Shown here piece by piece: positions 60,513 through 64,000 of a stretch of DNA of 64,000 nt. How positions within the stretch are numbered: the first letter of the stretch is position 1; the number at the start of each line of letters is the position of its first letter. The translations under genes were made by a program, and so were the position numbers. The notes below the pieces were generated by a model. It did no database searches, was not told the DNA's origin, and saw nothing but the letters and a program-made list of their open reading frames with translations. Source of the stretch: Fidelibacterota bacterium (GTDB lineage: Bacteria > Fidelibacterota > UBA8477 > JABMPR01); assembly GCA_018673925.1 (NCBI GenBank), contig JABHBL010000022.1:124001-188000 (forward strand), read 5' to 3'.

Positions 60513-61553
60513 ATGTTTAAGAAAACCACGGCGGGACTTTACATAACACTGACATTGATTCAATGCTCAAACCCAAAAGCAGACAACATCGATGCATTGT
60601 TCTCTGAATACCAAAACGAGGCGCCAGGAGCCGCAATCATGGTCATTCATAAGGGTGAGATATTGCTTGAGAGATATTATGGCCTTGCGGATATGAGCAC
60701 AAAAACCAAAGTGGCAAAAACATCGAATTTTAGATTAGCTTCAGTTTCAAAGCAATTTACTGCAATGGCTATATTGCAACTCATGGATCAGGGCATAATT
60801 AGTTTTTCTACAGGCTTAAGAGAGCTATTCCCAGAATTTCCGAGTTATGCCGAAGCGATTAATTATGGACAGCTACTACACCATACTTCAGGTCTTCTTG
60901 ATTATGAAGATCTGATCCCAGATTCAGCAACTGTCCCAGTGAGGGATGCTGAAGTCTTAGAATTATTGCTCCACCAGGATAGCACTTACTTCCCTCCTGG
61001 TTCCAATTATAGTTATAGCAATAGCGGCTATGCCTTGCTGGCTCTCACGGTTGAACGATTGTCTGGATTAACTTTTTCAGAGTATCTTGAAGAATATCTT
61101 TTCAGACCACTTGAAATGGATGAGTCAGTAGCCTTTGTCGATGGAATCAACACCATCCCGAATCGTGCATTTGGTTACCATGTTGACAATGGGAATACAC
61201 AATATAGTGATCAGAGCATGACCTCTTCTGTCTTAGGTGACGGCGGTATCTATTCCTCTGTGTCAGATTTATACAAATGGGATCAAGCTTTATTCAATTT
61301 TGAACTCGTTTCGGAAGATTTATTAGATTCCGCTTTTACTCCATGGCTGGAGAATTATGGCTGTGGGTGGCGAATTGAGGACTATAAGGGATTGAAACGT
61401 ATCAGTCACACGGGTAGTACCATTGGTTTTCGTACAGATTATCAGCGATTCCCTGAGATGGAGTTTTCTATAATTATTTTGACAAATCGTCGTGAACCAG
61501 GTGTTCAGTATCTTGCAGAGGCACTGACGGATATTTATCTGCTCAAAGAATGA
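60513..61553 (+). CDS. Serine hydrolase, class C beta-lactamase/PBP-like, probable lipoprotein
   Basis: 346 aa. The N-terminus (KKTTAGLYITLTLIQC) looks like a lipoprotein signal with Cys18, although Gln at -1 is unusual. The SxxK motif is SVSK (Ser77, Lys80), YxN is YSN (168-170), and HTGS near residue 294 takes the place of KTG. The family includes DD-peptidases, esterases and beta-lactamases; substrate unknown. It is monocistronic, with the array terminator upstream and a convergent gene 2 bases after its stop. Confidence 0.88.
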   Translation: MFKKTTAGLYITLTLIQCSNPKADNIDALFSEYQNEAPGAAIMVIHKGEILLERYYGLADMSTKTKVAKTSNFRLASVSKQFTAMAILQLMDQGIISFSTGLRELFPEFPSYAEAINYGQLLHHTSGLLDYEDLIPDSATVPVRDAEVLELLLHQDSTYFPPGSNYSYSNSGYALLALTVERLSGLTFSEYLEEYLFRPLEMDESVAFVDGINTIPNRAFGYHVDNGNTQYSDQSMTSSVLGDGGIYSSVSDLYKWDQALFNFELVSEDLLDSAFTPWLENYGCGWRIEDYKGLKRISHTGSTIGFRTDYQRFPEMEFSIIILTNRREPGVQYLAEALTDIYLLKE

Positions 61554-61555
61554 GA

Positions 61556-62101
61556 TTATTCCTCGCCAAACCGTTGCTCTAATTCCACTCCCAAACCATC
61601 AGCCATCCGGTTGACAAAACCAAAATAAGCCGTTATCGCACAAACATCATGAATACCACGATCATCCAAACCCTGGGAGCGGAGCTGGTTGACATCCTCC
61701 TCGGTCATATTTGATGGAGTTTGCGTTAATTTGACCGCATATGTTAGTATGGCTTTATCAATATTTTGAAGAACATGATGATCTCCCCCACTAACAAGTG
61801 CATCGATTAATGCATCATGATCGTCCGTGGAAATGTGCTTGGATGCCAGAAGTCTGCGGAGCCCAGCCCCGTGATGTTCAATTCAGTAGTGACACTCATT
61901 GATTGCTGATACCGCAACAGCTATCATCTCTCGCTGAATGCGAGTCAAGGGTCCTTTGCCGTACATCAACTCCTTATATAAGGTAAAGTGATGTTGCATG
62001 ATTTCACTGTGAACCCCATGGATGCGGAGAATGTGATCGGTATCGTTGACTCGATGTGCTTCAGGTATGTCATTTGGATCTACATATTTTATATATGCCA
62101 T
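61556..62101 (-). CDS. AhpD-like peroxidase-related selenoprotein (in-frame UGA read as Sec)
   Basis: 181 aa when UGA 61885-61883 is read through. Before it the frame gives MAYIKYVDPNDIPEAHR and EMIAVAVSAINECHY; after it IEHHGAGLRRLLASK, DALIDALVSGGDHH and ITAYFGFVNRMADGLG, ending at TAA 61558-61556. Together these form a complete carboxymuconolactone-decarboxylase/AhpD domain, with the UGA exactly at the second Cys of the CxxC redox pair (ECHY-Sec-IEHH, Sec73). Selenocysteine AhpD-like proteins are known. A SECIS-like hairpin follows the UGA. Likely a thiol/selenol peroxidase or reductase. Confidence 0.85.
61857..61871 (-). promoter_or_regulatory. Bacterial SECIS-like hairpin
   Basis: On the minus strand CGGGGC-UGG-GCUCCG forms six pairs (one G-U). 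The loop starts 17 nt after the UGA and has G at its second position, within the known bacterial SECIS spacing of about 16-37 nt. Confidence 0.6.
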
Positions 62102-62245
62102 GAGAGCTCCAGTTTTTATCTCAATGTATTAAGAATTCAGATTCAGTATAGTGTGTACCGCAAAAGAAAGCAACATGAGTCAGACAATATTTTTTGAATA
62201 CAGCTACTGCGTCCACAATATTGAGCCCTTTTATTAGAAGAAGGA

Positions 62246-63184
62246 TTAGCTGTTATCCCCACTGAATATCCCTGAAGTGTTCATAGCCAGCATGATATAT
62301 GGAGCAGGTTGAGACCCATCAGGGAAACCATTGGATGAGGACCATGCAATAAGGGGCCAGGCTACCCTTATTTTGACATTTTCCCAATATGGTTTTGATA
62401 CCACCATATCTATACCTGCCACTATTGAACCCAGTACACGTGTTTCTCGTGTACCAGTCCAAATGGATGGTGGCGCAATCAATTGTTCAGCCTTCAATTG
62501 AGCGAATGGAGCCAGGAAAAAGGGGTACCAGGTGTGTATTGCAGATGACACGTGAAGCAATGATCGATGATCACTAAGAATATTATCTCGCTTCATCGTG
62601 TTTTTCTGATAAAGCCAGCTCAGAGAAAGAGCACTTAAAAAATCAGGATTATATTTTACCCACGGCATTGGATTGGTGTACAGCAGTAGAGCACTCCACG
62701 ATATCCCTTCCTCAGAATCAAAGGGAAAATCTTGATTGAAATACTCAACTTGGCTTGGTAGATTCAGCATAAACTGAGCAAAAGATCGACCACGATTTCC
62801 TAATTCAATTCTCAATCCAGTTGCAAAACCACCTGAATAGGAAATAGTTGAGCTTTTAAGGTAGGTTACCCTTTCCTCAAGGGAGCCGACTCCTCCATAC
62901 CCGCTTACAAACAACACCTTTCTGGGACCAAGGGAGTGTGAGATTTCGATAAATATATTCATCGCTGGCCCATTTTTAATGTTTCCAGCAGGACCTCTAT
63001 GAGTCACCTGGACATCAGACATCCAATGCCAATTATTATCACCCATCAATTTATTTGGCCAATGAGCGACCCAGTTATTCATTGAGGCACCCCCACCTGC
63101 CTGACCACTACCCACCGGCGAACAGCACACCTGGCCAAATCCATGGCTAAATGATAAAATGCCTATGAATAAGATATATCTCAT
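62246..63184 (-). CDS. Exported protein of unknown function, probable outer-membrane beta-barrel
   Basis: 312 aa. A signal peptide (residues 1-17, ending HGFG) is followed by CCSPVGSGQAGGG and by a series of amphipathic strands (MNIFIEISHSLGPRKVLFVS, FATGLRIELGNRGRSFAQFM, VLGSIVAGIDMVVSKP). I do not recognise a family. The Cys pair right after the cleavage site is odd for a barrel and could bind metal or be lipidated. It overlaps the DUF3179 gene by ATGA, so the two are made together. Confidence 0.7.
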   Translation of the reverse strand: MRYILFIGILSFSHGFGQVCCSPVGSGQAGGGASMNNWVAHWPNKLMGDNNWHWMSDVQVTHRGPAGNIKNGPAMNIFIEISHSLGPRKVLFVSGYGGVGSLEERVTYLKSSTISYSGGFATGLRIELGNRGRSFAQFMLNLPSQVEYFNQDFPFDSEEGISWSALLLYTNPMPWVKYNPDFLSALSLSWLYQKNTMKRDNILSDHRSLLHVSSAIHTWYPFFLAPFAQLKAEQLIAPPSIWTGTRETRVLGSIVAGIDMVVSKPYWENVKIRVAWPLIAWSSSNGFPDGSQPAPYIMLAMNTSGIFSGDNS

Positions 63185-64000
63185 GGGGAAATTAATTCAA
63201 CATCTGGATAAAAAGCTGCTACTGAAAACCAGTATGCAATATAAGCGTTTGCGGCGACAAGGCGCTCAGCTGGTACCGGATTAGCTATCAACTGACCTGT
63301 AATATCCCATTCATTCTCTGTATCAGCTTGATTAAGAGTTATCTCACCTGCAGAAATATCCCAACTTGATATACTGATTGCGCGGGACGTTTCAAAGGCT
63401 ACAGCAATATTGTCGCGCCCGGAGATCACAACTTGGTATTGTGCATTTCCTACATTTACACCAAATATTTGAGGTTCGGGATAAGAATTAATGTCAATGG
63501 CCTTCACTTCATCCCCATTGATGATGGTCAGGACACGATTCTTGGCTGGCAGGCGCTCATCCTCATTGGCTACTGGAAAATATATATAATCACCGCAAGC
63601 TAGAGAGTTGCATGTACGATAGCTACCGTATGGATAGCGAGTGTAGTTGCGAGAGTAATTCGTTTCCGAATTCACAACCTTGGTTTCTGGAAAGAGTGTT
63701 TTCCAATTACTCCAGGTAGTCTCCACAAGATTTTTTAAGTGGAATATACTACCTGAACGATCACCTGCAGCAGATCGCAATAACATTTGTGGCCAATAAC
63801 TGTCTGTCTCGCGGTCATACATAATGAGATTGCTATTAAATAGTAAACCTGAAACACCATATTCCACGGATGTTGTCAAGTGGATCGCACTTCCTGTTAA
63901 TGGACAGTATGAAATACTGTAACCAGACTCATTAACTATTTCATGCCAATCAAGGATGGCATGTGGGTAGGCTACATGTTCTGTTCCATTCCATATGCCC
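63181..64000 (-). CDS. DUF3179-family protein (5' end outside window)
   Basis: The frame runs from the window edge (first full codon at 63999) to TGA 63183-63181, at least 272 aa. DUF3179 hallmarks are YPHAILDWHEIVNE, YCPLTGSAIHL, YGVSGLLFNSNLIMYDRET and SYWPQMLLRSA. The family motif is usually CPLCG (in some members CPL-Sec-G); here the second Cys is Thr. It is a putative exported protein of unknown function, often linked to transport and barrel genes. It is coupled to the following hypothetical gene. Confidence 0.88.
   Translation of the reverse strand, partial: GIWNGTEHVAYPHAILDWHEIVNESGYSISYCPLTGSAIHLTTSVEYGVSGLLFNSNLIMYDRETDSYWPQMLLRSAAGDRSGSIFHLKNLVETTWSNWKTLFPETKVVNSETNYSRNYTRYPYGSYRTCNSLACGDYIYFPVANEDERLPAKNRVLTIINGDEVKAIDINSYPEPQIFGVNVGNAQYQVVISGRDNIAVAFETSRAISISSWDISAGEITLNQADTENEWDITGQLIANPVPAERLVAANAYIAYWFSVAAFYPDVELISP

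Follow-up and report, generated by a model that had tools for sequence, protein, structure and literature searches.

An AhpD-like selenoprotein gene, interrupted by an in-frame TGA at codon 73, was found at positions 61556-62101 of the window, that is, the whole stretch of 64,000 nucleotides of a marine bacterium that was analysed. Judging from the sequence and its homologues, this TGA is very probably read as selenocysteine (Sec). The initial annotation had described an AhpD-like selenoprotein hidden by an in-frame UGA, and this interpretation of the sequence is supported, with the family assignment (TIGR01926), the exchange between TGA and Cys codons among homologues and the Sec genes of the genome in agreement. 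A conserved redox enzyme is lost from a plain ORF list at this place. As the family itself is already in print, the finding is of value mainly for annotating the gene correctly and for hinting at a redox pair in which both members use Sec.

Gene and reading frame

A single frame of 181 codons runs on the minus strand from 62101 to 61556 and contains only one TGA, at codon 73. Coordinates and TGA were as the initial annotation gave them, and the frame ends in TAA. The features of the gene are the following:

61556..62101, minus strand: coding sequence of the AhpD-like (TIGR01926) selenoprotein, 181 aa including U73, stop TAA
62107..62110, minus strand: GGAG, probable ribosome-binding site judged from the sequence, 5 nt 5' of the ATG
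61928..61930, minus strand: Glu58, start of the AhpD proton relay (E in 73/73 aligned rows; its spacing matches PA0269 and AhpD of M. tuberculosis)
61892..61894, minus strand: Cys70, first residue of CxxU (C in 73/73 rows)
61883..61885, minus strand: in-frame TGA, codon 73, predicted Sec and second residue of the pair in CHYU (sequence and homologue alignment)
61871..61873, minus strand: His77, proton relay residue (H in 73/73 rows; spacing as in the reference proteins)
61857..61871, minus strand: SECIS-like hairpin CGGGGC-UGG-GCUCCG, six pairs, loop 17 nt past the TGA (folding)

In the standard ORF list, a 72-aa ORF was the only entry in the selenoprotein frame, which is exactly the fragment that an ordinary gene caller had been expected to report. 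The two halves joined scored 49.2 bits with the Pfam CMD profile (cut-off 23), versus 28.2 bits for the first half alone, and the second half alone matched no family at E 0.001. The domain is completed jointly by both halves, in line with the original claim. The read-through protein also scored 116.5 bits with NCBIfam TIGR01926 (peroxidase-related, AhpD-like; cut-off 81.8) and 46.2 bits with the AhpD core domain (cut-off 27.8). Read-through frames with at least 25 aa on either side of a TGA numbered 98 in the 64-kb window, so an open frame around a TGA is by itself common by chance; it is the protein family match that makes this frame stand out from the others. The gene is real, and a plain gene finder truncates it at the TGA.

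Codon 73 among homologues

A search of the phylum yielded 82 matches in 70 of 245 genomes. Seventy-six of them fall in 75 loci (L026-L100), 73 of which were aligned. Outside the alignment are L099 (split in G089 into two pieces, of which one has the TGA), L100 (G077, with no tblastn match) and six weak or partial matches (G082, G116, G064, G071, G106:C14 and G059). The aligned codon 73 was TGA in 62 homologues, TGT in six and TGC in five, a count that may be biased by the Sec-type query used and that includes non-independent rows, among them the near-copies L055/L056, L054/L057, L083/L085 and L076/L080. Since TGA in 62 of the 73 rows is accompanied by Cys in the rest and by no other codon, the conservation goes beyond chance. 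It was proposed initially that the TGA occupies the second Cys position of a CxxC motif, to be checked against members with Cys at residue 73; the alignment bears this out, with CHYU in the window protein and a Cys codon at that place in all 11 homologues without TGA. No aligned row had a second in-frame TGA. Glu58, Cys70, Tyr72 and His77 were invariant, so that with Sec or Cys at residue 73 the proton-relay set (E58, C70, Y72, U73, H77) is complete in 73/73 rows.

Within the family of the window organism, a homologue was present in 10 of 20 genomes. The protein was 61-77% identical to those of three Candidatus Neomarinimicrobiota records, from which the phylum of the window organism is inferred. 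By the residues that follow the site, the TGA genes could be split into set A (n = 39), to which the window gene belongs, and set B (n = 23). In a tree with the codon-73 site masked and L080 left out, the 11 Cys genes formed two separate clades; two state changes are needed, or perhaps one, and several deep forks are weak.

Some further observations were made on the distribution of the gene. The AhpD-like proteins of G088 (L076) and G168 (L080), which belong to different families, are identical over their common part and lie on draft contigs; a misbinned contig is perhaps the cause. No relative was found in a scan of viral contigs. Relatives occurred in 396 plasmid records, all at less than 60% identity, and 14 of 25 among the matches listed were annotated as 'peroxidase-related enzyme'.

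The same set of genes bears on the possibility that the gene is a pseudogene, or that its TGA is due to an assembly or base error, in what would otherwise be an AhpD-like gene of the ordinary CxxC type. Two observations are in its favour. The copy in G006 (L024/L028) has, in addition to the TGA, a TAG in codon 139, which is either decay or an error, and the codons that follow the TGA evolve faster than those that precede it. Among the 11 nearest genes the median dN/dS was 0.15 after the TGA (21 pairs with dS <3) and 0.06 before it (17 pairs), values that are rough, with dS near saturation. Compared with L027, 38 synonymous and 34 nonsynonymous changes were counted in the 107 codons after the TGA, and 18 and five in the 72 codons before it. 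However, a dN/dS of about 0.15 after the TGA speaks against a pseudogene, as does the fact that 62 of the 73 homologues, spread over many families of the phylum, share the TGA at this codon. All 10 homologues of the organism's own family have the TGA, and therefore a base-call error, named at the outset as a finding that would overturn the reading, is very unlikely. Taken together, this alternative is highly improbable. General reading of TGA as a sense codon, e.g. Trp, would also account for a TGA in the frame of a conserved protein, but it is still less credible, as TGA is the stop of 10 of the 40 non-overlapping ORFs of at least 200 aa in the window and the aligned residue is Cys, in 11/11 homologues without TGA.

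Selenocysteine machinery in the genome and the phylum

A Sec reading of codon 73 led the initial annotation to predict that the organism decodes Sec and that selA, selB, selC and selD are located elsewhere in the genome. In the genome search it had proposed, all four genes were found over cut-off, which disposes of the objection that the machinery might be absent. The selC match reached 72 bits (cut-off 47) and was identified by ARAGORN as tRNA-SeC with the anticodon tca, while selA, selB and selD scored 524, 348 and 370 bits, respectively. On contig C10, a distance of 1.6 kb separates selA from selB. The organism's own selD (match at G000:C26:43075-43998) itself has an in-frame TGA, Sec28 in AAGUAGK, with a 7-bp hairpin past it (loop GGA, -11.6 kcal/mol). 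In 14 control genomes, matches over cut-off were obtained for selC in five, selA in one, selB in two and selD in two; weaker selC and selB matches occurred in all 14, and for this reason only matches over cut-off were counted.

The use of Sec looks common in the phylum, in which 166 of 245 genomes have a selB match over cut-off. The gene was present in 48 of the 53 TGA-form genomes versus six of the 11 Cys-form genomes (Fisher p 0.0097), according to a hand tally of E-values that imply the selB cut-off. As the Cys clades are separate, this association between Cys form and Sec genes partly reflects shared ancestry. The five Cys-form genomes without selB also had no selA match, and one of them, G022, is a single contig. 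Five TGA-form genomes were likewise without selB. One of these, G081, has selA, and the remaining four, G003, G203, G085 and G113, had neither selA nor selB over cut-off (completeness 86, 85, 91 and 93%, respectively); missing contigs are the simplest reason.

In family f5 (G022-G040), the selB-like matches of all 19 genomes had E-values of 1e-58 or worse, taken as under cut-off, and the four aligned AhpD-like genes all have Cys. Selenocysteine may have been lost in this one lineage. Three SAR406 single-cell genomes are mentioned among the organisms with an orphan SelD (PMC5029168), which may be due to the incompleteness of those genomes. No paper on selenoproteins of the phylum (Marinimicrobia/SAR406/Neomarinimicrobiota) was found by title, by the start of the abstract or by passages in the open-licence literature.

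Hairpin after the UGA

The published geometry of bSECIS elements comprises a loop of 3-9 nt, a stem of 4-16 bp, a G among the two leading loop bases and a distance of 16-37 nt from the UGA, with an energy of -7.5 kcal/mol or better (PMC13188914). The window hairpin fits the geometry (loop UGG, 6 bp, 17 nt). Its energy reached the limit with 6-nt flanks (-8.4 kcal/mol) and missed it as the bare 15-mer (-7.3 kcal/mol). Dinucleotide shuffles folded as well in one of 200 cases for the 15-mer, 40 of 200 for 38 nt and 81 of 200 for 42 nt, and 13% of synonymous recodings of the gene equalled its hairpin. By itself the hairpin of the window gene is ordinary and not statistically striking. Of what had been claimed for it, the six pairs, the UGG loop and the allowed distance stand; as evidence taken by itself, it is weaker than it was made to sound.

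A different picture was obtained from the pooled homologues. A stem of at least five pairs with a G at loop position 1 or 2 was found in 37 of 39 genes of set A, 23 of 23 of set B and one of 11 Cys rows, in a scan that allowed a spacing of 14-37 nt; the energy scan used the published 16-37 nt and left out L060, which contains an N. In the register of the window hairpin, a run of at least four pairs was present in 97% of 38 distinct A sequences, 62% of 21 distinct B sequences and none of the 11 Cys sequences. Stem-loops of -7.5 kcal/mol or lower occurred in 18 of 38 A, six of 23 B and none of 11 Cys rows, versus 7%, 5% and 1% of the synonymous recodings; in this scoring, 20 A rows and 17 B rows missed the limit. 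The mean folding z relative to synonymous recoding was -1.11 in A (39 genes), -1.26 in B (23) and +0.10 in the Cys genes (11), and elsewhere in the A genes, at 16 positions, it ranged from -0.50 to +0.05. In the sister genes L039 and L041 of set A, the G-C pair at 16/28 is replaced by C-G. Synonymous variation in the hairpin codons was not significantly lower (seven versus 60 positions, p 0.14, 11 nearest genes). A hairpin better than chance is therefore supported for the pooled TGA homologues alone and is hardly present in the Cys genes, with the reservation that the rows are related by descent and the pooled figures overstate their independence. A search of positions 61400-62300 against Rfam gave only two matches, both far under the gathering score and to implausible families.

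During translation, the hairpin just past the UGA would guide SelB, which would bring Sec-tRNA to codon 73 and thus give the active site Cys70-His-Tyr-Sec73.

Gene neighbourhood

The neighbours of the selenoprotein gene in the window are the following:

63181-63999, minus strand: DUF3179 gene, upstream and on the same strand as the selenoprotein gene, cut by the window end
62246-63184, minus strand: gene without a Pfam family, 312 aa, CCSP motif, upstream of the selenoprotein gene
60513-61553, convergent: PF00144 beta-lactamase-family gene, downstream of the selenoprotein gene

The gap of about 144 bases upstream suggests that the selenoprotein gene has its own, putative promoter. The 312-aa gene was found at the same place in six of the 19 loci compared, and relatives of the PF00144 gene lay downstream in six of the 19; both counts include the window locus, and some flanks were short. 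In several relatives, the DUF3179 and 312-aa genes stay together upstream of the selenoprotein gene.

Proposed activity

By analogy with its relatives, the protein probably plays a role in peroxide defence, either directly or by feeding a peroxiredoxin. In the mechanism of AhpD, Cys133 is the attacking residue. From the family, Sec73 is expected to replace this second Cys of the AhpD CxxC (M. tuberculosis numbering) and to be activated by Glu58, Tyr72 and His77. Following the AhpD mechanism, Sec73 would then attack peroxide or the disulfide of a partner and Cys70 would resolve the intermediate, after which a dithiol donor, e.g. a lipoyl protein, might re-reduce the active site as in the family. 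AhpD passes electrons from lipoamide proteins to AhpC, and loss of the AhpD-like protein made a D. radiodurans mutant more sensitive to H2O2 (PMC8945050).

A main function other than that of a peroxide enzyme or reductase, such as a Bmp8-like reductive dehalogenase or a general thiol oxidoreductase, was also considered. No substrate is known for the subfamily, and the debrominase Bmp8 (6ohi, 6ohj) was listed in the fold search (TM 0.63, E 0.004-0.006). That search was run with the best of five structure models, which alone was used (based on three sequences, with a mean pLDDT of 79; 43-56 for the other four). Nevertheless, the best matches in both sequence and fold were peroxidase-related proteins, and together with the H2O2 sensitivity of the D. 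radiodurans mutant they make such a function unlikely. Literature searches combining AhpD with lipoamide and proton relay, or AhpD with Bmp8 or debrominase, found nothing.

A possible partner for a role in peroxide defence is a Prx-like UxxC selenoprotein. The gene in the organism's own genome (L109, match at G000:C107:4912-5421) has one TGA, in RGGWUPYC, and the best hairpin past this TGA, at -6.2 kcal/mol, does not reach the published limit. Among the 20 genomes of the family, both genes were present in eight, the AhpD-like gene only in two, the Prx-like gene only in two and neither in eight (Fisher p 0.023, uncorrected for kinship; Prx-like at E 1e-10 or better). In G004 and G015 (L025, L034) the Prx-like UxxC gene lies directly beside the AhpD-like gene in divergent orientation. 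The Prx-like copy at L025 has two TGA codons, and its frame seems broken upstream of the active site. In G201 the two genes are in tandem, both without TGA and with about 150 bases between the matches. A single read with Prx-like 1 adjoining AhpD-like 2 has been reported (PMC2398784). In the window organism the two genes lie on different contigs (C34 for the AhpD-like and C107 for the Prx-like gene). Outside the family, eight genomes have a Prx-like match at E 1e-10, and of the 54 with a TGA- or Cys-type AhpD-like gene only two (G103, G201) have such a match, which makes the link at best a local one. It is tentatively suggested, as a rather doubtful proposal, that the two proteins could form a redox pair, both with Sec, in which the AhpD-like partner would maintain the Prx-like one in its reduced state; if true, this would be a selenium version of the AhpD-AhpC couple. 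The co-occurrence and the neighbourhood hint at a selenoprotein pair without demonstrating one.

Comparison with known systems

The window protein is an AhpD-like CxxU selenoprotein of COG2128/TIGR01926, a new member of a kind already known, as the initial annotation had rightly stated. Such proteins have been in print since 2005, when 27 sequences were reported in a Sargasso Sea survey (PMC1088965); an 'AhpD-like 1' selenoprotein family was named in PMC2398784, and AhpD-like selenoproteins are listed in PMC13188914 and PMC9312934. It resembles the known family in the profile score over cut-off, the CxxU motif, the SECIS-type hairpin past the UGA and the Cys homologues at the same place. Nothing essential sets it apart, the host being a Neomarinimicrobiota genome. 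The TGA form is commoner here (62 of 73, with a Sec-type query) than in ocean samples, in which 299 Sec and 902 Cys forms were reported (PMC2398784).

The peroxidase-related AhpD-like proteins 3c1l, 2pfx, 2oyo and 6k40 are similar in sequence (E 2e-22 to 3e-17) and, according to the predicted model, in fold (TM 0.64-0.69). The spacing of E, C, C and H was identical to that of 3c1l, 2pfx and 2oyo in the three alignments compared. All four proteins have CxxC, whereas the window protein has a predicted Sec at the second position.

The proton relay consists of Glu36, Cys48, Tyr50 and His55 in PA0269, with Cys51 at the place of residue 73, and of Glu118, Cys130, His132 and His137 in M. tuberculosis AhpD, with Cys133 at that place (PMC3141380). 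Residues 118/130/132/133/137 of the latter (1knc, 1gu9) correspond to 58/70/72/73/77 here, with the same spacing, although Tyr72 stands in place of His132. The fold match of the predicted model to M. tuberculosis AhpD was weak (E 0.12-0.21), and with 23.2 bits against a cut-off of 191.95 the protein is not a member of TIGR00777 (AhpD proper). It shares an AhpD core with CxxU with the AhpD-related CFYUT selenoproteins (NF041238), but at 57.7 bits (cut-off 175) it does not belong to them either.
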